From: an uncultured Ignavibacteria bacterium
GTDB lineage: Bacteria > Bacteroidota > Ignavibacteria > Tepidaquicellales > OLB5
Reading direction: 5' to 3'
NCBI GenBank assembly: GCA_937873695.1
Contig: CALMYL010000017.1
Location: forward strand, 1 to 64,000
DNA length: 64,000 bases
Under the pieces are notes generated by a model. It made no database searches. It worked only from the letters and a program-made list of their open reading frames with translations, and was not told where the DNA came from. The position numbers and the translations under genes are program-made. Of this stretch, positions 45,894-58,929 are shown piece by piece; the stretch's first letter is position 1; each line of letters opens with the position of its first letter.

Positions 45894-47468
45894 ATGAGAA
45901 AATTATTTTCGCTTTTGTTTGCTGTTATCGCTCTTGTAGCTGTAACAAATGCACAGGATGCGCCTCACTCAGTAGGACCGGCTCCGGTTCAGAATCTGGT
46001 GCAGGCTCCGGTTGCCGGTGATTTTGATGCATCGATCGGAAAACGTTATTTTTCACAGATCTCATCATCCCCGACCTTCCAGTTCGGTAAAGCTTTCACA
46101 GAATCATGTACCATCACAAACGTTGGTGCACCTTTCACAATTACATTCCCGGGCGGTTTAATGTACAGGAATGGCGTTGTTTACACATACAACCAGTCAT
46201 CACCGTTCCAGTTATGGTCAATTGATACCACAACAGGTACACATACATTAGTATTCAACATGACAGGCGTTCCCCAGGCTAACTTCACAGGTATGGTTTG
46301 GGATGGAACAAACGTATATGGTATGTCAACAAGCATCACACAGTCACAGATCTTCACAATCAACATGACAACAGGTGTTTGTACCCCGATCGGATCTGCA
46401 TCAGCAGTTTGCGCAGGCGGTATTACATTACTTGGCCGTACAGGCGCACAGTACAGCTTGTTCGCACTTGATATCGTTGCAGACAACTTATACAAAGTTA
46501 ACAAAACAACAGGTGTATTCACACTCGTTGGACCGCTTGGTGCAAACCTGAACTTCGGTCAGGACGGAAGTGTTGATAACAGTGATTTCGCATTCTATGC
46601 AATGGACTATTCAACAGGTCCTGAATTAAGAAAAGTAGATACAGCAACAGGTACATTAGGACCGGTTCTTTGCACATACACAGCTCAGGCTACAGGTATG
46701 GCAATATTACCTCCTGGTGCTCCTCCTCCGCCGGCAGGTGTAGTTCTTAACCGCTGCAAAACAGGTATTAATGTTCCTATTAATGACCATTCAACAGCAA
46801 CAGATACTATCCAGGTTGCTTTAGGAAGCGGCTGCACAGTATTAGACGTTAATGTACAGATCACAAACGTTACACATACATGGGATTCAGATCTTTCATT
46901 CTATTTACGTAAAGGTACCACCGGCGTTAAAATCATCAACAAAGTTGGCGGTTCAGGCGATAACTTCGTAAATACAGTATTAAACGATTCAGCTACAACA
47001 CCAATAGCTTCAGGCACAGCTCCTTTCACAGGCAGCTTCCAGCCTTCATCACCGCTTGCTCCGTTCAACACACTCAACACAGACGGAACATGGTCACTTG
47101 TTATCACAGATACAGCTACAGGTGATACAGGCGTATTAACCGGCTGGTGCTTAATTATCACATACCAGTGCCCGGTTGGCGGAATTCAGACTGTTGAAAT
47201 TCCTAACTACTATAGCTTAAGCCAGAACTATCCTAATCCGTTTAACCCGTCAACATCAATTAAATTCACCATGCCTAAAGGCGATAACGTGAGATTAGTT
47301 GTATTTGATGTATTAGGAAGAGAAGTTATGACTTTAGTTAATGAATTCAAATCATCAGGTTCATATGAAGTTAACTTTGATGCATCAACATTGTCATCAG
47401 GCGTTTACTTCTACAGACTCGAAGCAGGCGAATTCACTGATACAAAGAGAATGTTACTTGTAAAATAA
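45894..47468 (+). CDS. T9SS cargo with N-terminal propeller-like domain and P-domain
   Basis: A 524-residue secreted surface protein. The signal peptide ends at ...VTNAQ, then DAPHSVGPAP. Residues 40-275 form a propeller-like domain with repeated TTGTHTLVFNMTG, FTINMTTGVCTPIG, NKTTGVFTLVGPLG. Residues about 283-425 form a proprotein-convertase-type P-domain (INDHSTATDTIQVALG, NVTHTWDSDLSFYLRKG). The T9SS tail is 432-524 (LSQNYPNPFNP, GREVMTLVNEF). Codon use is strikingly biased (ACA, TCA, GTT, AAC, TTC). Bases 45963-46715 appear identical to 54217-54969. Its strong promoter and biased codons suggest a very abundant surface protein; role unknown. Four relatives follow. Confidence 0.92.
   Translation: MRKLFSLLFAVIALVAVTNAQDAPHSVGPAPVQNLVQAPVAGDFDASIGKRYFSQISSSPTFQFGKAFTESCTITNVGAPFTITFPGGLMYRNGVVYTYNQSSPFQLWSIDTTTGTHTLVFNMTGVPQANFTGMVWDGTNVYGMSTSITQSQIFTINMTTGVCTPIGSASAVCAGGITLLGRTGAQYSLFALDIVADNLYKVNKTTGVFTLVGPLGANLNFGQDGSVDNSDFAFYAMDYSTGPELRKVDTATGTLGPVLCTYTAQATGMAILPPGAPPPPAGVVLNRCKTGINVPINDHSTATDTIQVALGSGCTVLDVNVQITNVTHTWDSDLSFYLRKGTTGVKIINKVGGSGDNFVNTVLNDSATTPIASGTAPFTGSFQPSSPLAPFNTLNTDGTWSLVITDTATGDTGVLTGWCLIITYQCPVGGIQTVEIPNYYSLSQNYPNPFNPSTSIKFTMPKGDNVRLVVFDVLGREVMTLVNEFKSSGSYEVNFDASTLSSGVYFYRLEAGEFTDTKRMLLVK
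45963..46715 (+). repeat. 753-bp identical repeat, copy 1
   Basis: Appears identical, by eye, to 54217-54969, 8254 bases downstream. It covers the whole N-terminal propeller-like domain but not the signal peptide, and ends at CTCCT exactly where the two proteins switch to different C-terminal domains. Confidence 0.92.
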
Positions 47469-47533
47469 AATTACTTGTAAAATTATTTTATAAGAACAAA
47501 GTTCTGTTGTATTAAAACTTGTTTAAAATTCAC

Positions 47534-47563
47534 AAGCCCGTCCATAGAAATATGAACGGGCTT
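47534..47563 (+). terminator. Rho-independent terminator
   Basis: AAGCCCGT (47534-47541) / ACGGGCTT (47556-47563), with an inner CATA / TATG pair and a T-rich tail, 66 bases after the stop of the preceding cargo gene. Confidence 0.85.
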
Positions 47564-47728
47564 TTTATTTTTACATTTTTTTGCAGGTTCAGTTTGAGAT
47601 ACCCTGAAAAATGCAGTGAAACGGTGTTTTTTTGCTGTAATGCCTCTTATTCTTTAATTGTATTTTAGTTATATATTTATTAAGTTACACATAACAACAC
47701 AGTGCTTCACACTATAATACTACTTATC

Positions 47729-49315
47729 ATGAAAACACTTTTTCTTATCATTTGTTTTCTGTTTCTTTCATTTCTTTCTTTAACTTTCAATCTAAGATCT
47801 CAGAACATACCGCATTCATTCGGCCCGGCGCCGTTGGGAAACACCGTCCAGGTTCCGCCGCAAATTTCGTTTGACGCTGCTATAGGCACGCGCGCTTTCA
47901 CACAAATATCATCATCGCCAACATTTCAGTTCGGCAAAGTATTTATGGAAAGCTGCACAATAACGAATATTGGCGCGCCGTTCACAATTACATTCCCGGG
48001 CGGATTGATGTACAGGAACGGGATTGTGTACACATGGAACCAGTCATCGCCGTTCCAGTTATGGTCAATTGATACCGTTACCGGAACGCACACACTTGTT
48101 TTTAATATGACGGGCGTACCGCAGGCAAACTTCACGGGTATTTGCTGGGATGGGGCAACTGTTTACGGAATGTCATCTTCACTCACACAGTCACAGATAT
48201 TTACTATAAATATGACAACAGGCGTTTGCACGCCGGTTGGCACAGCTTCGGCAGTCTGCGCCGGGGGAATTACACTGCTTGGAAGACCGGGCGCGCAGTA
48301 CAGCCTTTTTGCAATAGATATTGTTGCTGACAACCTGTATAAGGTCAACAAAACAACAGGTGTTTTTACGCTTGTTGGACCCCTTGGGCAGAACCTGAAC
48401 TTTGGTCAGGATGGAACTGTTGACCCGAGGGATAATACATTTTACGCAATGTGTTATTCAACAGGTCCTGAGCTAAGAAAAGTTGATACTGCTGCAGGCA
48501 CATTGGGTCCGGTGCTTTGTACATACACGGCACAGGCTACAGGCATCGCAATTAATACTGTGGTTTATACTCCGCCTATGGGTCCGCAGGCTACAGTTTG
48601 CAGAACGATTAATATTCCAATTAATGATCATACCACTATTCTTGATTCTATTTATGGAGTTTTGGGTGACGATTGTATTGTAAATGATGTGAATGTAAGA
48701 ATTGATTCTGTTCTTCATACATGGGATTCAGATCTTAGCTTTTACCTGCTGCGCGGGAATATTGGCGCTAAGATAATAAATAAAGTAGGCGGCTCAGGTG
48801 ATAATTTTATTGGGACGATACTGAACGATTCCGCTTCCAATACCATTGAATCAGGTACGGCGCCATTCACCGGGTCATACAAGCCGTCAAATCCGCTTAC
48901 AGTTTTCAACGGTAATCCGGGCATAACCGGACGCACATGGAAATTGTTAATTTCTGATACTGCTACGGGAGATACGGGTATCCTGAAAAGATGGTGCATT
49001 GTGATAACCTATCAATGTCCTGTTGGCGGAATTCAAACAATAGAAATACCCAATTATTATTTCCTCGATCAGAATTATCCAAATCCGTTCAATCCGGTAA
49101 CAAATATTAAATTTGGTATTCCCGAAACGGGGAATGTGCGGCTGGTTGTTTATGATATACTCGGGAGGGAAGTAAGTGTGTTAATGAATGAGCAAAAGAA
49201 TCCCGGCACATATGAAGTTAAGTTTGATGCCTCACAGTTTGCTTCAGGGATATATTTTTATTCACTTTACACTGTAAAGGGAGTTGATACAAAAAGAATG
49301 TTATTAGTAAAATAA
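47729..49315 (+). CDS. T9SS cargo, propeller-like + P-domain (family member 2)
   Basis: About 528 residues from the ATG at 47729 (MKTLFLIICFLFLSFLSL, a signal peptide); a GTG at 47702 is less likely. Same architecture as 45894: N-terminal domain with NIPHSFGPAPLGNTV and AVCAGGITLLGRPGAQYSLFAIDIVADNLYKVNKTTG, P-domain (VLHTWDSDLSFYLLRGN) and T9SS tail (LDQNYPNPFNP). Protein similarity to the 45894 gene is high but codons are mixed and ordinary, so the sequences have diverged silently. 26 bases before the next paralogue, as in one operon. Confidence 0.92.
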   Translation: MKTLFLIICFLFLSFLSLTFNLRSQNIPHSFGPAPLGNTVQVPPQISFDAAIGTRAFTQISSSPTFQFGKVFMESCTITNIGAPFTITFPGGLMYRNGIVYTWNQSSPFQLWSIDTVTGTHTLVFNMTGVPQANFTGICWDGATVYGMSSSLTQSQIFTINMTTGVCTPVGTASAVCAGGITLLGRPGAQYSLFAIDIVADNLYKVNKTTGVFTLVGPLGQNLNFGQDGTVDPRDNTFYAMCYSTGPELRKVDTAAGTLGPVLCTYTAQATGIAINTVVYTPPMGPQATVCRTINIPINDHTTILDSIYGVLGDDCIVNDVNVRIDSVLHTWDSDLSFYLLRGNIGAKIINKVGGSGDNFIGTILNDSASNTIESGTAPFTGSYKPSNPLTVFNGNPGITGRTWKLLISDTATGDTGILKRWCIVITYQCPVGGIQTIEIPNYYFLDQNYPNPFNPVTNIKFGIPETGNVRLVVYDILGREVSVLMNEQKNPGTYEVKFDASQFASGIYFYSLYTVKGVDTKRMLLVK

Positions 49316-49341
49316 TTCCTTGATAGTTTATGGAGACTAAA

Positions 49342-50913
49342 ATGAAAACTGAAATTACTTTATTCACAGCAATTTTTATCCTTGCAATTTCGGCAGCAGG
49401 GCTGAGTTCTCAGGAAGTGCCGCATTCAGTTGGTCCGGCACCAATTGTTAATGATAATACGCCATTTATTCACCAGAATGACGCTGCAATTGGCACTCGT
49501 TACTTTGTACAGGTATCATCTTCGCCAACATTTACGCTGGGTAAAGCTTTCATGGAAAGCTGTACTATCACAAACATAGGGTCACCTGTGCCCATTACTT
49601 TCCCGGGAGGATTGATGTACAGGAACGGTATTGTTTATACTTATAACCAATCCGCGCCCTACCAGCTATGGTCTGTTGATACATCTTCCGGTGTTAACAC
49701 ACTTTTGTTCAATATGACGGGGGTACCTCAAACCAACTTAACAGGCATGATGTGGGACGGAACAACTGTATATGGACTTTCAACAAGCATAACCGCATCA
49801 CAGATATTCACAATTAATATGACAACCGGTGTGTGCACACCTATTGGTACGGCATCGGCAACATGCGCAGGCGGAATAATGTTACTTGGAAGAATGGGAG
49901 CAGCATCACCAATGTATGCAATTGATATTGTTGCGGATAATTCATACAGAGTGAATAAGACAACAGGTGCGTTTACATTGCTTGGACCGCTTGGAGTAAA
50001 TATTAATTTCGGGCAGGATGGCTCGCTTGATCCAAATGATAACACTATATATGTTGCTTGTTACTCAACAGGTCCGGAATTAAGAAAATTTGATGAAGGT
50101 ACAGGCGGGTTTGGGCCGGTGCTCTGTACATATACAGCCCAGATAACCGGTTTGGCTTGTGTTGCCATGGGTACCGCGCAGGGAACGCAGTTAACCAGGT
50201 GCAGGAACGGCCTGAATATTCCTATCATTGATAATGGCTGGGGCCGTGATTCTGTTCAGGTTATATTGGGCAATGGATGCAGCATAACAGATGTTAATTT
50301 AAGAATTGATACGGTAGTACATACATGGGATTCTGATCTGAAATTTTATTTACAGAAAAATACAACAGGGGCGCAGGTAATTAACAGCGTAGGCGGGTCA
50401 GGCGATAACTTCATCGGGACGGTACTGAATGATTCGGCAACTGTTCCGATAGCTTCGGGAACTGCGCCTTTCACGGGTTCATTTATCCCTTCCAGTCCGC
50501 TAAACGTATTTAACGGACCGTTTACCAGCGGATACTGGAAACTTTCAATTTCAGATACCGCCGGAGGCGATACAGGTTTCTTGAGAGCATGGTGTCTTGT
50601 TATTACATATCAGTGTCCGGTTGGCGGCATTCAAACCATAGAAATACCTAATTATTATTTCCTGAACCAGAATTATCCAAATCCGTTCAATCCGGTTACA
50701 AATATTAAGTTCGGTATTCCCGAAAGCGGGAATGTACGGCTTGTTGTGTATGATATATTGGGAAGGGAAGTAACAACATTATTGAATGAACACAAAAATC
50801 CGGGCACGTATGAAGTGAAGTTTGACGCATCACAGCTTGCATCGGGGATATATTTTTATTCACTTCAAACAGAACGGGTAACAGAAACAAAACGAATGCT
50901 GCTTGTGAAATAG
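49342..50913 (+). CDS. T9SS cargo, propeller-like + P-domain (family member 3)
   Basis: About 523 residues. The ATG at 49342 is chosen because GGAG lies seven bases upstream and a signal peptide follows (MKTEITLFTAIFILAISAAGLSS); an in-frame ATG at 49330 precedes it. The propeller-like domain (VPHSVGPAPIVNDN, ATCAGGIMLLGRMGAA) and P-domain (VVHTWDSDLKFYLQKNT) are followed by a T9SS tail nearly identical to that of the 50936 gene (IEIPNYYFLNQNYPNPFNP, ends ETKRMLLVK). Between paralogues on both sides (gaps 26 and 22 bases). Confidence 0.92.
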   Translation: MKTEITLFTAIFILAISAAGLSSQEVPHSVGPAPIVNDNTPFIHQNDAAIGTRYFVQVSSSPTFTLGKAFMESCTITNIGSPVPITFPGGLMYRNGIVYTYNQSAPYQLWSVDTSSGVNTLLFNMTGVPQTNLTGMMWDGTTVYGLSTSITASQIFTINMTTGVCTPIGTASATCAGGIMLLGRMGAASPMYAIDIVADNSYRVNKTTGAFTLLGPLGVNINFGQDGSLDPNDNTIYVACYSTGPELRKFDEGTGGFGPVLCTYTAQITGLACVAMGTAQGTQLTRCRNGLNIPIIDNGWGRDSVQVILGNGCSITDVNLRIDTVVHTWDSDLKFYLQKNTTGAQVINSVGGSGDNFIGTVLNDSATVPIASGTAPFTGSFIPSSPLNVFNGPFTSGYWKLSISDTAGGDTGFLRAWCLVITYQCPVGGIQTIEIPNYYFLNQNYPNPFNPVTNIKFGIPESGNVRLVVYDILGREVTTLLNEHKNPGTYEVKFDASQLASGIYFYSLQTERVTETKRMLLVK

Positions 50914-50935
50914 TACCTTTAATTTAAAATAAGTT

Positions 50936-52516
50936 ATGAATATAAAAATATCCTGGTTTAAAATATTGACCGCGTTAGTTTTCCTTTCGGTAAATTTGCA
51001 TTCGCAGGATCTTCCGCATTCAGTTGGATTGGCGCCTGTACAGGACTTTACAATTAGTCCTATTGCAACCGGTTTTGATGCATCGATTGGCAATAGATAT
51101 TTTGCGCAAATATCTTCATCGCCAACATTCCAGTTTGGTAAAGCTTTTACGGAATCATGTACTATCACAAATGTTGGCGCACCTTTTGCAATGACATTCC
51201 CCGGTGGACTGTTGACAAGAAACGGAGTAGTTTATACTTGGAATCAGAATTCACCGTACCAGTTGTGGACAATAGATACTGTAACCGGAGCATACACTCT
51301 TTTATTCAATATGTATGGAGGACAGCTGACAAATCTTACCGGCATGTGCTGGGATGGAAATGAGTTGTTTGGTATATCAACAAACTTAGCGCAAACTGCA
51401 GTTTACAGGATTAACATGACCACCGGTACCTGGTCCTCATTTGGTTCTTCAATGGAATGTGCGGGAGGAATCACTCTTTTGGGAAGAAAGGGTTCACAGT
51501 ACAGTCTGTTTGTTCCTGATATTGTTACAGATAATCTCTTTAAGATCGATAAAACGACAGGAGTATTCACTTTGGTGGGGCCGCTTGGTCAGAATATTAA
51601 TTTTGGTCAGGATGGATGTGTTGACCCAATTGATAATACTTTCTATGCTATGACGTATACAACAGGTCCGGAATTACGGAAGCTGGATACTGTAAGCGGA
51701 AATTTAGGACCGGTATTGTGCACATATGCTTCCCAGGCAACGGGAATGACCTTTAGGGAGCTCTCACTACCGCCCAATGGTGCACTCACAACTGTATGCA
51801 GAACAGGTATAAATGTATCTATACCTGATCATGGTACTGCTTTGGATTCAGTAAATCTGGTTTTGGGTCCGGCTACCAACATTCTGGATGTGAATGTAAG
51901 GATTACAAATGTAACACATACTTGGGATTCTGATCTTACATTCTATTTGAGAAAAGGCAATGTTGGTGCATTGATAATTAACAAGGCAGGCGGCTCTGGT
52001 GATAATTTTGTAAATACTGTATTAAACGATTCGGCAGTGATACCGATAGCTTCCGGTACCGCCCCTTTTACAGGAAGTTTTATCCCGTCTTCTCCCTTGA
52101 CTCCATTTAATTTTATGGGGGGAACCGGAGATGGTTACTGGAAACTTGCAATTACTGATACAGCCGGCGGTGATACAGGTGTTTTAACCGGTTGGTGTTT
52201 GATAATTAAATATGAAGTTTATCTTGGAGGCATCCAAACCATAGAAATACCTAATTATTATTTCCTGAACCAGAATTATCCTAACCCTTTCAATCCGGTT
52301 ACAAATATTAAGTTCGGAATTCCCGAAAGCGGAAATGTAAGGCTTGTTGTTTATGATATATTGGGAAGGGAAGTAACAACATTATTGAATGAACACAAAA
52401 ATCCGGGTACGTATGAAGTGAAGTTTGATGCATCGTATCTTGCATCGGGGATCTATTTTTATTCACTGCAAACTGAACGGGTAACAGAAACAAAACGAAT
52501 GCTTTTGGTTAAGTAG
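50936..52516 (+). CDS. T9SS cargo, propeller-like + P-domain (family member 4)
   Basis: A 526-residue protein of the same design. Signal peptide MNIKISWFKILTALVFLSVNLHS, then DLPHSVGLAPVQDF. The propeller-like domain lacks the Cys in the usual MTTGVCTP position (here MTTGTWSS), P-domain NVTHTWDSDLTFYLRKGN, tail LNQNYPNPFNP. The third of a three-gene run with gaps of 26 and 22 bases, likely cotranscribed from a promoter before 47729. Confidence 0.92.
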   Translation: MNIKISWFKILTALVFLSVNLHSQDLPHSVGLAPVQDFTISPIATGFDASIGNRYFAQISSSPTFQFGKAFTESCTITNVGAPFAMTFPGGLLTRNGVVYTWNQNSPYQLWTIDTVTGAYTLLFNMYGGQLTNLTGMCWDGNELFGISTNLAQTAVYRINMTTGTWSSFGSSMECAGGITLLGRKGSQYSLFVPDIVTDNLFKIDKTTGVFTLVGPLGQNINFGQDGCVDPIDNTFYAMTYTTGPELRKLDTVSGNLGPVLCTYASQATGMTFRELSLPPNGALTTVCRTGINVSIPDHGTALDSVNLVLGPATNILDVNVRITNVTHTWDSDLTFYLRKGNVGALIINKAGGSGDNFVNTVLNDSAVIPIASGTAPFTGSFIPSSPLTPFNFMGGTGDGYWKLAITDTAGGDTGVLTGWCLIIKYEVYLGGIQTIEIPNYYFLNQNYPNPFNPVTNIKFGIPESGNVRLVVYDILGREVTTLLNEHKNPGTYEVKFDASYLASGIYFYSLQTERVTETKRMLLVK

Positions 52517-52597: not shown

Positions 52598-54016
52598 ATG
52601 TTTAACAAATTAATCGCTGTACTGATCTTGATCACTGCATGTTACAGGGTAACATCGCAGGATAATCCATTCTATATAGAAGATAAATCCGGGAACAAAG
52701 GTGAGATAATTTCCTCTCCCTTTCTTGGAGATACAACCATAAGCGTTCAGGGTATGTGGAGTTCGCTGAACGCCCTTCCGATATCTTTAATGGGTACCAA
52801 TACTTAAATGGGTACCAATACTTATTACGATTCACTTTCCGGCAGGATATTCATCTGCGGCGGAGCTAACCAAAGCGCTGTACCAAATGATACATGCTGG
52901 TGGTATAACATTTCTACAGGTGTATACCAGCAGGCAGCATTGCTGCCCGAAGGAAGATGGTCAGGGAAGCTTGTAAGGGTTAAAAGTAATCTTTACCTGG
53001 TTGGTTCAATTAATTCAACATTCAGCTCGCCCGATGGCAAAATATTCAGGTATTCCCTTCAGCAGAACAGCTGGTCTGTGGCTGATACAATGCCGGTTCC
53101 TTTAGTACATGAAGCGGCCGTTACCGTTATTAACGATAGCCTGATTGCAATAGTGGGCGGTTCAACAAACGGCTTCCAGGGAGCAATAAACCGTGTTCGT
53201 TTGTATGAACCTGTGCTTGGTGTATGGAAGAACTCTGATCCGTTTCCTGTTAACAATTCAACCGCGCATGCAGAGCTTAATATTAACGGCAATGACACTT
53301 CAATTTTTGTATTCGGCGGATATAATGCGGGGTACTTAAACACCGTTTATAAAGGTATAATAAGTACTGTTAACCAGGATACTACTAGTATTACATGGCA
53401 GTTGTTCTGCAATGTCCCGTTCAGCAGTCCGGTTTACAGGGTTGCGGGAACTAAATGGAGAGATTATATGCTGATGGGCCCCGCGATGAACGGAGGTACA
53501 TCTTTAAATAATATCTGGGGTTTGGCTTTTGACGGATCATTTGGTTACTGGACAAATTTCCTTCCGTCATCAGGAGATTCAGCAGCAATCATTTCTACTT
53601 TTTCCACGGTAAGCGGAACGGATTCAAATTATTTTTATCTGTTTGGCGGATTCAAAAATCCGAATGTACTTAATGCCGCGCAGAAGTACTCATTCATTAC
53701 ACCGCCGCCTATCGGAATTGTAAATATTTCTAATAGTATTCCTTCCGGTTTTAAACTGCATCAGAATTTTCCTAATCCTTTCAATCCCTTAACAAAAATA
53801 AGATTTGATTTTGAAAGAACCCCGGGGGCGGGAGATGTGTTGTTAAAAGTATTTGATATAAGCGGCAGATCAGTAAGTGAGTACAGATTTCAGGACCTTC
53901 AAAGCGGTTTATATGAAATCACTTTTGATGGCAGTCAGCTTGCAAGCGGTGTATATTTTTACACAATTTCGGATTTTCATAATTCACAAACAAAAAAAAT
54001 GATTTTAATAAAGTAG
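52598..54016 (+). pseudogene. Kelch-type T9SS cargo gene interrupted by an in-frame stop
   Basis: One reading frame spans 52598-54016 but has a TAA at 52805-52807. The part before it (69 codons) has a signal peptide-like start (MFNKLIAVLILITACYRVTS) and the beginning of a Kelch blade (MWSSLNALPISL). The part after it begins MGTNTYYDSLSGRIFICGG and continues the same blade, then Kelch repeats (VVNDS/IAIVGGSTNGFQ, FVFGGYNAGYLN) and a T9SS tail (LHQNFPNPFNP, TKKMILIK). The stop is created by an exact 18-bp tandem duplication at 52789-52824; removing one copy gives an open frame of 466 codons. A second, in-frame ATG (52808) could start an N-terminally cut protein without a signal peptide, so the allele is probably inactive unless the copy number changes. 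Confidence 0.85.
52789..52824 (+). repeat. Exact 18-bp tandem duplication
   Basis: Two identical copies (AATGGGTACCAATACTTA) at 52789-52806 and 52807-52824. They cross the codon after MGTNT: with one copy the codon is TAT (Tyr), with two it is TAA (stop). The duplication length is a multiple of three, so the frame is kept and only the stop is gained. Confidence 0.95.
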
Positions 54017-54147: not shown

Positions 54148-55905
54148 ATGAAAAAAATCTTTTCGCTTTTGTTTGCTGTTTTGGTTTTAACTTTTGTTAC
54201 AAGTGCACAGGATGCTCCTCACTCAGTAGGACCGGCTCCGGTTCAGAATCTGGTGCAGGCTCCGGTTGCCGGTGATTTTGATGCATCGATCGGAAAACGT
54301 TATTTTTCACAGATCTCATCATCCCCGACCTTCCAGTTCGGTAAAGCTTTCACAGAATCATGTACCATCACAAACGTTGGTGCACCTTTCACAATTACAT
54401 TCCCGGGCGGTTTAATGTACAGGAATGGCGTTGTTTACACATACAACCAGTCATCACCGTTCCAGTTATGGTCAATTGATACCACAACAGGTACACATAC
54501 ATTAGTATTCAACATGACAGGCGTTCCCCAGGCTAACTTCACAGGTATGGTTTGGGATGGAACAAACGTATATGGTATGTCAACAAGCATCACACAGTCA
54601 CAGATCTTCACAATCAACATGACAACAGGTGTTTGTACCCCGATCGGATCTGCATCAGCAGTTTGCGCAGGCGGTATTACATTACTTGGCCGTACAGGCG
54701 CACAGTACAGCTTGTTCGCACTTGATATCGTTGCAGACAACTTATACAAAGTTAACAAAACAACAGGTGTATTCACACTCGTTGGACCGCTTGGTGCAAA
54801 CCTGAACTTCGGTCAGGACGGAAGTGTTGATAACAGTGATTTCGCATTCTATGCAATGGACTATTCAACAGGTCCTGAATTAAGAAAAGTAGATACAGCA
54901 ACAGGTACATTAGGACCGGTTCTTTGCACATACACAGCTCAGGCTACAGGTATGGCAATATTACCTCCTTCAGCACCGCCGGTAACAACATTCCCGGATG
55001 TACTGTACTACAAATTTGAGCAGAATGCTTCACCAACAACAACACCAAACTGCGCATTACCGCCGGCAGGAACAAACCCGGCAACATTAACCGGCTTAAC
55101 ATTAACATCAGGCGGCCAGTTTGATTCATGTTTGACGGGTACAGGCGGAACAGGCTTCAGGGTTGCAACCGGATGGAACTGCGATCTCGCTTCAGGCAAC
55201 TGGACAATCAGTTTCTGGGTAAACAACCTGGTAGATATGAACCCGACATACTTATTTGGTGATGCAGGTTCAACATCATTCAGATGTTTCTATGGCGGCG
55301 CAGCTGGCGTAGATAACATGCTTTTAAGAGGACCAATGACAGATATTACGATTCCCTGCCCGGCAGGACCCCAGGTATTCCATATGGTGTATGACGGAAC
55401 CAACGTTATCATCTACAGAAACGGCGCATTGATAAGCACAAACCCAAGAACAATTACCATGCCTACAGGTACCGGATTCTTTGTTGGCGGTTATACAAGC
55501 GGCTTTGGTCTTTCAGGCAAGATGGACGAATTCAGATTAATTCGCCGCGCATTAACACCTGCAGAAGTAACAGCTTCATGGAACTCTGACTTAGGCGGAT
55601 GCGGACTTGTTACAGTATCAGAAAACAACAACGAAATACCGGCTAACTTCAGCCTTTCACAGAATTATCCTAATCCGTTCAACCCGGTAACAAATATCAA
55701 ATTCAGCCTTCCTTCATCAGGAATGGTTAAAATAGTGGTATTTGATCTGTTGGGCAGAGAAGTAGCAACACTTGTTAATGATGAAATGTCAGCAGGCAAC
55801 TATACTGTTGATTTTGACGCATCATCACTTTCATCAGGTGTATATTTCTACAGATTAGACGCAGGTAATTTCACACAAACAAAGAAGATGTTACTTGTAA
55901 AATAA
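54148..55905 (+). CDS. T9SS cargo with the same N-terminal domain but a LamG-like C-terminal domain
   Basis: A 585-residue protein. The signal peptide and propeller-like domain (to about residue 275) match the 45894 gene, with 753 bases apparently identical (54217-54969). After LPPSAPPVTTF the P-domain is replaced by a LamG/concanavalin-A-like lectin domain (about 283-490: FPDVLYYKFEQNA, WTISFWVNN, FHMVYDGTNVIIYRNGALI, GKMDEFRLIRRALTPAEV). T9SS tail 500-585. Codon use is as biased as in 45894. LamG domains often bind sugars, so this could be an adhesin variant of the same scaffold. Confidence 0.92.
   Translation: MKKIFSLLFAVLVLTFVTSAQDAPHSVGPAPVQNLVQAPVAGDFDASIGKRYFSQISSSPTFQFGKAFTESCTITNVGAPFTITFPGGLMYRNGVVYTYNQSSPFQLWSIDTTTGTHTLVFNMTGVPQANFTGMVWDGTNVYGMSTSITQSQIFTINMTTGVCTPIGSASAVCAGGITLLGRTGAQYSLFALDIVADNLYKVNKTTGVFTLVGPLGANLNFGQDGSVDNSDFAFYAMDYSTGPELRKVDTATGTLGPVLCTYTAQATGMAILPPSAPPVTTFPDVLYYKFEQNASPTTTPNCALPPAGTNPATLTGLTLTSGGQFDSCLTGTGGTGFRVATGWNCDLASGNWTISFWVNNLVDMNPTYLFGDAGSTSFRCFYGGAAGVDNMLLRGPMTDITIPCPAGPQVFHMVYDGTNVIIYRNGALISTNPRTITMPTGTGFFVGGYTSGFGLSGKMDEFRLIRRALTPAEVTASWNSDLGGCGLVTVSENNNEIPANFSLSQNYPNPFNPVTNIKFSLPSSGMVKIVVFDLLGREVATLVNDEMSAGNYTVDFDASSLSSGVYFYRLDAGNFTQTKKMLLVK
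54217..54969 (+). repeat. 753-bp identical repeat, copy 2
   Basis: Same block as 45963-46715. The repeat ends where the LamG-like domain begins, and the upstream signal-peptide DNA differs, so it looks like the product of recent gene conversion or domain shuffling. Confidence 0.92.
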
Positions 55906-56107: not shown

Positions 56108-57403
56108 ATGAAAAGATACTTTTCTGTTTTATTATTACTTTTTACTTTTACTGCATTCTCTCAGATCTTTCAGCCGAACCAATGGTGCGGCAATTTTCCG
56201 GTGATGCCGGGTACAGGCACAATTTGGGGCCATGCTTCTGTGGTGCTGGGTGATACAATATACGTGGCCGGAGGCTCATCTTCAGGGGCTCCTTCAACAA
56301 TATTTTATAAGTATTCAATAAGCGGAAATAACTGGAACACCGGTGCAGGTACACCGGTTGCAAAATCAGGGGGTGACCTGGTTGCATGCAGGAATAAAAT
56401 ATATTACATCGGCGGGGGCAACACCGCTGTTGCTACCGGCACATCTGAAACATTTGTGTACGATGTAACAACAGGTGTGTGGAGCGCGGTCGCAGATATT
56501 CCTACACCTGTGACAGGCAATGTGGCTGAGTGTTACGCTGATAGTTTGATATACTGTATGCTTGGCGGCTGGAATACATATGAAACACTTATACAGGTTT
56601 ATAATGTGAATACCAACACATGGGCGCAGGCAACACAGATATCATCAGGTAACGGCAGAAGAAGCTTTGCCGGGGGAATACTTGGCAACAAACTTTTTGT
56701 TTGCGCGGGATTTTCGGGAAGCTTCAGGAATGATTTCTGGGTAGGTACAATAAATCCTGCAAATCCATTGCAGATAACATGGCAGCAGAGGACGAATATA
56801 TCAGTGCCCACCAGCAGACCCGGAGGTACGGCTATTATGGGTAAATTTTATGTTATCATGGGCGAAATATCGGGCGGTGCCGGAAATGACTCGGTTGCGA
56901 TATGGGATACAACCACATCAGCATGGACTTACAGAGACGGTAAACCTGTGAGAACAAATAATCTTTACAGCGCTATTTCGGCAAGCATTACATACTGCAA
57001 CAACCGTCCGGGTGTAAAAATATGGTGCGCAGGGGGCTCTATACAGGGGCAGACAACAAGACCGCTTGATGTTTTTGCTGATACATGTTTGCTTAACTGC
57101 ACAGGTCCGTTGACCGGGATAGAGAATAACAGTATCCCTGCAGAGTACAGGCTTATGCAGAACTACCCAAATCCCTTCAACCCGCAGACAAAAATAGCGT
57201 TTCAAATACCGCGGGGCGGGAATGTAAGGATATCTGTAAGCGATCTGCTTGGCAGGGAAGTGAGCGAGCTGAAAAATGAACATATGAATGCAGGTTATCA
57301 CCAGGTTGTGTTTGATGGCAGCGGTTTTTCGAGCGGCGTATATTTCTATAAAATTGAAACGGGTGCATTTACGGACACAAAAAAAATGGTAATAATTAAG
57401 TAA
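56108..57403 (+). CDS. T9SS cargo, Kelch-type propeller protein
   Basis: A 431-residue secreted protein. Signal peptide MKRYFSVLLLLFTFTAFS, six Kelch-like blades (SVVLGDTIYVAGGSSSG, ACRNKIYYIGGGNTAVATG, ECYADSLIYCMLGGWN, GGILGNKLFVCAGFSGS, TAIMGKFYVIMGEISGG), with paired Cys in the last blade and before the tail. T9SS tail 345-431 (MQNYPNPFNPQ, GREVSELKNEHMNAG, TDTKKMVIIK). A GGGGGTGG just upstream of the start is a plausible ribosome binding site. Surface-exposed; substrate unknown. Confidence 0.92.
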   Translation: MKRYFSVLLLLFTFTAFSQIFQPNQWCGNFPVMPGTGTIWGHASVVLGDTIYVAGGSSSGAPSTIFYKYSISGNNWNTGAGTPVAKSGGDLVACRNKIYYIGGGNTAVATGTSETFVYDVTTGVWSAVADIPTPVTGNVAECYADSLIYCMLGGWNTYETLIQVYNVNTNTWAQATQISSGNGRRSFAGGILGNKLFVCAGFSGSFRNDFWVGTINPANPLQITWQQRTNISVPTSRPGGTAIMGKFYVIMGEISGGAGNDSVAIWDTTTSAWTYRDGKPVRTNNLYSAISASITYCNNRPGVKIWCAGGSIQGQTTRPLDVFADTCLLNCTGPLTGIENNSIPAEYRLMQNYPNPFNPQTKIAFQIPRGGNVRISVSDLLGREVSELKNEHMNAGYHQVVFDGSGFSSGVYFYKIETGAFTDTKKMVIIK

Positions 57404-57532: not shown

Positions 57533-58906
57533 ATGAAATTCATTAGTATTCTGATAATCATTTTATTGAGCTTTTCATCCATCCAGGCTCAAAACCAGGA
57601 CTATGATGAAAATTTCACCTACGGAAGTTATTTTACCCCGGAGCCAACTCCATTTCACTTATCCGGTAACTGGTCATTGCTTGCAAATTCACCAAATTCA
57701 GTATCAAGAAGCTGCTGCGCGTTTGTTGAAATAAACGGCGTTCCGTATTTATACCAGTTCGGCGGCGGCAATTCAACTACTGAGCTCAAAAGGGTTGCCA
57801 GGCTGAACCTGTCTAATAATACGTGGCAGAACAATTATTCTGTAATGCCTTATGCCATATCATCAGGTACAGCAATTTCCGTTAACGGCGGCAATGAGAT
57901 CTATGTATTCGGCGGAAACTCACCCAATGGTCTAGGAAAAACACTGAAATATAATGTGTATTCAAATACCTGGGAAACCAAGGCGGATATGCTTACGAAG
58001 ATCACCGATGCACTTGTGGTTAAGCACAGCGAAACAAATATCATAATTATTGGCGGAGGTGACGGCTATTTTGGCCAGAACGCTCTAAAAACAAATAAAG
58101 TGCAGATATACAACACTGCTTCAAATACTTATTCATACTCAACTGACTACCCTATACAGTGCGCTATGCTTGGCGGCGGATTGTACAGGGATACGGTAAT
58201 TACCGGTGGCGGTTATACTACAGGCGGTGTATCGGTATCAAATTGTTACAAAGGAGTAATAAACCCGCTGAACATGAGCATTACGTGGAGTCCTATAACA
58301 AATTATCCCGCAGGACCTATTACCAGGATGGCATCATATGTTGCGGTTAAGGGAACGGGTGTTGGAGTAATGTTCACAGGCGGAGCGGTTGGAGGCTCAA
58401 TACCTACTTCTGCGACCCACTTCTGGAATTTCTGCACGCAGTCGTGGCAGCCGGGTTTACCTGATAATACGCAGGCGCGTTCTAATTACAAGGCCACAGG
58501 CAGGGGATATGATATGGTATATACAACAGGCGGGTATACAACCAATACCAACTCAAACAGAACAGAATATTTAACTTTCACTCACATAGAAGGGCCATGT
58601 ATGAACATGGTTGGAATAAACGGTAATAATAATACAATACCCGAGAAATTTGAATTAAAGCAGAACTACCCGAATCCGTTCAATCCGCAGACATTAATTG
58701 GGTTTTCTTTGCCAAAGGGCACAAATGTGAGGATAATTGTTACAGATGTAAGCGGAAAGCAGGTAAGTGAGCTGGTAAATTCATATTATGTTTCCGGAAA
58801 CCACTCAGTTGCTTACAATGCAGCAAATCTTGCATCAGGAATCTACTTTTATACTATAACTACAAACGAATTTTCACAAACAAGGAAAATGCTGCTAGTA
58901 AAGTAA
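57533..58906 (+). CDS. T9SS cargo, Kelch-type propeller protein
   Basis: A 457-residue secreted protein with AAAGGAG before the ATG and a signal peptide (MKFISILIIILLSFSSIQA). Kelch blades: FVEINGVPYLYQFGGGNS, ISVNGGNEIYVFGGNSPN, SETNIIIIGGGDGYFG, GLYRDTVITGGGYTTGG, GVGVMFTGGAVGGS, GYDMVYTTGGYTTNT. T9SS tail 370-457 (KQNYPNPFNPQ, VSGKQVSELV, TRKMLLVK). Close in design to the gene before it (tail and blade order), so probably an old tandem duplication. Its own terminator follows. Confidence 0.92.
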   Translation: MKFISILIIILLSFSSIQAQNQDYDENFTYGSYFTPEPTPFHLSGNWSLLANSPNSVSRSCCAFVEINGVPYLYQFGGGNSTTELKRVARLNLSNNTWQNNYSVMPYAISSGTAISVNGGNEIYVFGGNSPNGLGKTLKYNVYSNTWETKADMLTKITDALVVKHSETNIIIIGGGDGYFGQNALKTNKVQIYNTASNTYSYSTDYPIQCAMLGGGLYRDTVITGGGYTTGGVSVSNCYKGVINPLNMSITWSPITNYPAGPITRMASYVAVKGTGVGVMFTGGAVGGSIPTSATHFWNFCTQSWQPGLPDNTQARSNYKATGRGYDMVYTTGGYTTNTNSNRTEYLTFTHIEGPCMNMVGINGNNNTIPEKFELKQNYPNPFNPQTLIGFSLPKGTNVRIIVTDVSGKQVSELVNSYYVSGNHSVAYNAANLASGIYFYTITTNEFSQTRKMLLVK

Positions 58907-58929
58907 AAAATTAAAGAAAATGCTCATTA

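Follow-up and report, generated by a model that had tools for sequence, protein, structure and literature searches.

In pneumococci, the capsule can be switched reversibly by tandem duplications in cap3A, cap8E/wchA and tts (Waite et al. 2001, 2003, cited in PMC4243769 and PMC2995930), and where the insertion is no longer than 9 bp the expected reversion is quoted as at most ~1e-5 (PMC4022640). No papers on phase variation in Ignavibacteria were found in a search of the literature. Here we describe a gene, kelch1, in a 64,000-nucleotide stretch of DNA (the window) from an environmental Ignavibacteria genome, which is interrupted by an exact 18-bp tandem duplication with a stop codon at its junction. 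We consider it likely that this is a fresh and potentially revertible loss-of-function allele of a dispensable surface-protein gene, which is very recent and confined to the source genome.

By direct reading of the sequence, the unit AATGGGTACCAATACTTA is present twice, exact and head to tail (Table 1), so that exact periodicity extends over 36 bp (2 x 18), and the frame at the site runs CCG ATA TCT TTA ATG GGT ACC AAT ACT TAA ATG GGT ACC AAT ACT TAT TAC. The TAA takes TA from copy 1 and A from copy 2 and is in frame with the ATG at 52598, while past it the frame remains open until a stop at 54014-54016, and with one copy kelch1 has 466 codons. The sequence-only reading had claimed a gene split by this tandem pair and its in-frame TAA, with an uninterrupted 466-codon gene regained on removal of one copy, and all of this was confirmed. 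By chance, an exact tandem unit of 18 bp would be expected 4.6e-6 times per 64 kb, and 40 simulated 64-kb sequences contained no tandem unit of at least 12 bp. Examination of the site for a DNA hairpin showed folding no better than in shuffles (z 0.03), and likewise matches to promoter or terminator consensus sequences were not above those in shuffles.

Table 1. Features of the kelch1 locus, in window coordinates.
Feature	Position	Strand	Remarks
Copy 1 of the 18-bp unit AATGGGTACCAATACTTA	52789..52806	+	codes for M-G-T-N-T
Copy 2 of the 18-bp unit, exact	52807..52824	+	11/11 orthologs have one copy only
TAA stop, codon 70, formed where the copies join	52805..52807	+	from the reading frame
kelch1 5' fragment, 69 codons: predicted signal peptide MFNKLIAVLILITACYRVTSQ and linker to early Kelch strand	52598..52807	+	aligns with the N-termini of 11 orthologs
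kelch1 3' fragment, 402-codon open frame from the ATG right after the TAA	52808..54016	+	Kelch propeller and T9SS type A sorting domain, without signal peptide
T9SS C-terminal sorting domain (Por_Secre_tail), residues 321-399 of the 402-aa fragment	53768..54013	+	profile match
kelch2, intact paralog, 431 aa, same cluster	56108..57403	+	
kelch3, intact paralog, 457 aa, same cluster	57533..58906	+	

Judging by its domains, kelch1 would encode a secreted Kelch beta-propeller carrying a T9SS type A sorting domain, with a probable surface location and function. The Kelch_6 match scored 62.7 bits (cut-off 25.3; E 2.4e-17) and the TIGR04183 match 32.5 bits (cut-off 23); Kelch motifs and Por_Secre_tail were judged by Pfam cut-offs and TIGR04183 by the NCBIfam cut-off, and all were exceeded. 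The source genome also encodes SprA, a protein of the T9SS translocon, above its cut-off. The closest ortholog was modelled with AlphaFold2 (mean pLDDT 69, with the propeller region mostly at 70-90), and Foldseek matched the model to the Kelch-domain propellers of Keap1, KLHL17 and NS1-BP; in this model the duplicated segment forms residues 65-70, within strand E65-72 early in the propeller. The domain scores and the model agree with the Kelch repeats and sorting domain of the earlier description, and a signal peptide is predicted as well. Although the added 18 bp preserve the frame, their junction forms a TAA, so translation should end after 69 codons with no surface protein made, and the resulting product would be an exported stub of 69 residues.

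We read the site in 11 orthologs (47–77% identical), from 10 of the 12 congeners and from a single genome belonging to a neighbouring genus of the same family (L020, a fragment truncated by a contig end), and in every one there is a single G-x-N-x-x-Y segment and no internal stop. In the closest ortholog (G005, 77% identical) the site reads GCT TTA ATG GGT ACA AAT ACA TAT TAC, and the gene order matches that of the window, with kelch1 followed by a laminin-G-domain gene, kelch2, kelch3 and then the gene at 58920. Relatives found by name were metagenome-assembled genomes of Ignavibacteria, among which WB-IL-15 (77% identity) came closest. Since all 11 orthologs have a single copy and an open frame, the duplication is derived and confined to the source genome, and this comparison, proposed beforehand from the sequence-only reading, thus identifies the stop as new there; the frame is interrupted here and intact in relatives, as in a loss-of-function allele. 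The two other congeners (G006 and G011) carry distant paralogs only and have no close kelch1 ortholog, which argues that kelch1 is accessory and its loss tolerated. The unit core, GGGTACCAATACTTA, has no second occurrence in the source genome and none in its congeners. A conserved switch element was also considered and is ruled out, with one copy in every ortholog.

The remainder of the gene shows no decay. Against G005, dN/dS was 0.12 for the whole of kelch1 and 0.116 for the 396 codons past the site, which points to continued purifying selection there; the intact neighbours kelch2 and kelch3 gave 0.04 and 0.065, respectively. As dS exceeds 1 in this comparison, these values reflect a long common history and not the time since the break. 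A more telling measure is the polarised count of amino-acid changes, taken from columns that are alike in 4 or more of 5 outgroups: 4 on the window lineage versus 5 on that of G005. No second lesion or relaxed constraint was found in kelch1 past the stop, and this, together with the lack of excess changes relative to the sister lineage, indicates that the break is very recent; the absence of further decay fits an event too young to decay. An old pseudogene was ruled out on the same grounds, and the pattern that the earlier reading had named as speaking against a switch, with the stop in all related strains and further decay in the rest of the gene, was not seen.

The source genome (3.78 Mb, 30 contigs, 99.9% complete; the window is part of contig C17) was surveyed for comparable events in sampled stretches totalling 464 kb, about 12% of the genome. 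The kelch1 pair is the only exact tandem unit of at least 12 bp within a gene in this sample, with the remaining exact tandems being intergenic or at contig starts. Contigs C21 and C18 start within tandem arrays (L121:1-331 and L126:1-101; units of 138 bp and 14 bp), which indicates that the assembly breaks at repeats. Among 267 genes matched by relatives' proteins at 50% identity or more, kelch1 is the only one with a true internal stop, since the other flagged stops fall ahead of the actual start codon or within shadow frames. The event is therefore isolated in the sample and the assembly clean, and on the 464-kb scan we rejected a noisy assembly as well as a mutator or duplication signature across the genome.

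Replication slippage would have duplicated 18 bp inside an early propeller strand. As the periodicity is exact over only 36 bp, the junction lacks perfect microhomology, but to the left of the run, beyond one mismatch, CTT (52785-52787) matches CTT (52803-52805), so that CTT(T) at 52785-52788 faces CTT(A) at 52803-52806, one mismatch off, and may have offered a 3-bp CTT microhomology. The nascent end ...ACTTA probably re-paired at TCTTT with a terminal mismatch and was extended, which would yield the CTTA/AATGGG junction that is observed. Six Thr-bearing relatives, G005 included, have ACA where the source genome has ACT, making the right-hand CTT peculiar to the source lineage. Since the two copies adjoin and match exactly, slippage could in principle undo the duplication, as in pneumococcal cap3A, and this precedent together with the quoted reversion rate suggests that the kelch1 allele can plausibly revert. 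We infer, then, a slippage origin, a loss of function and a revertible allele.

Two other accounts were considered. An assembly artefact or strain-mixture consensus, in which a single copy is the true state or a two-copy minority exists beside the one-copy allele, is in keeping with a draft genome of 30 contigs and with relatives found by name that are all metagenome-assembled genomes, but we consider it improbable, as 18 bp is much below read or assembly k-mer length and an internal stop occurs in only 1 of the 267 matched genes, so that the assembly is otherwise clean. Precise 18-bp duplications are, moreover, not typically produced by assemblers. Alternatively, both halves might be functional genes, the first giving an exported peptide of 69 aa and the second, through termination-reinitiation at TAAATG, a cytoplasmic Kelch protein of 402 aa, given that an ATG directly follows the stop and the downstream frame is fully open. 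This we regard as extremely doubtful: the sorting domain would be useless without a signal peptide, no relative has the split, and the ATG is simply one of the gene's internal Met codons (LMGTNT), found in G004 and G005 too. A product restarted there would also lack the first strand of the fold (model residues 48-56) along with the signal peptide, and so should not be exported.

The sequence-only reading had raised a phase-variation switch as a possibility, beside a recent pseudogene and an assembly error. In such a switch the population would keep moving between an ON state with one copy and an OFF state with two, and selection would favour this reversibility in a surface protein. Of this proposal, loss of the 18-bp pair by slippage stands as possible, and a surface-type gene, exact and adjacent copies, the lack of decay past the stop and the potential analogy with the capsule switching by duplication in pneumococcal cap3A, cap8E and tts are all in its favour, although the lack of decay is equally expected from a recent event and from a frequently flipping allele. 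None-the-less, we judge selected switching quite improbable, since 11 of 11 orthologs have a single copy and no repeat at the site, and the pair has no companion or sister locus among in-gene exact tandem duplications of at least 12 bp in the 464 kb sampled. Evolved contingency genes usually occur in sets. Nothing was found at kelch1 that marks an evolved phase-variation system, and with all 11 orthologs uninterrupted the locus is better described as an ordinary fresh knock-out, possibly reversible, than as an evolved switch. It is very unlikely, too, that kelch1 was caught in the OFF state of a recurring natural switch, working by de novo 18-bp duplication of the pneumococcal type on a T9SS surface protein in an uncultured Ignavibacterium. 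A fresh null allele of kelch1, polymorphic or fixed, is the parsimonious reading.

The surrounding region is rich in related genes and repeats. Just upstream of kelch1 (45894-52516) are four adjacent paralogous T9SS genes with weak DUF6923 and P-domain matches and a sorting domain, which form a young-looking local expansion. Two T9SS-sorted genes (45894-47468 and 54148-55905) have 822 bp in common at 98% identity, 753 bp of them exact, and these stretches are direct repeats 8.25 kb apart, on either side of kelch1. Their similarity may come from a recent duplication or gene conversion, or be produced by the assembly, and recombination between them could remove kelch1 entirely. Elsewhere, a REP-like intergenic motif (CCTTCGACAAGCTCAG / CCTTCGCTCCGCTCAGG) is recurrent in the source genome and in a congener (G009), with sites at L131:11213-11281 and, in intergenic DNA, at about 75680 in C17 and about 51930 in C21, and in one place it forms a 25-bp tandem array.

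As a null allele, kelch1 offers a clean case of a short in-frame tandem duplication silencing a surface protein with an easy way back, and its lesson is mainly cautionary: a single interrupted gene with intact relatives is no proof of a switch. If both states were to coexist in reads, duplication-based switching would extend from known pathogens to an environmental phylum. Among the T9SS type A-sorted Kelch proteins of Ignavibacteria, kelch1 has the usual architecture, gene cluster and sorting domain, and differs in that this copy alone is interrupted. With simple-sequence-repeat contingency loci, where slipped-strand mispairing acts on homopolymer or short-unit tracts, it shares slippage at repeats that alters translation of a surface protein; however, it has no many-copy short-unit tract, its repeat was absent before the event, and the sampled genome holds no family of such loci. 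In the pneumococcal capsule genes, as these are described in the citing papers, a spontaneous short tandem duplication within an ORF for a surface trait likewise abolishes the product and exact adjacent copies permit reversal. There, switching is reported both ways, whereas kelch1 presents one event in one genome with its direction taken from relatives; unlike those duplications, that in kelch1 is a multiple of three and acts through a junction stop codon. With recent nonsense pseudogenes, finally, kelch1 has in common a new stop in one lineage and intact relatives, but here the lesion is an exact duplication and not a point change, which would make precise reversal mechanistically easy.
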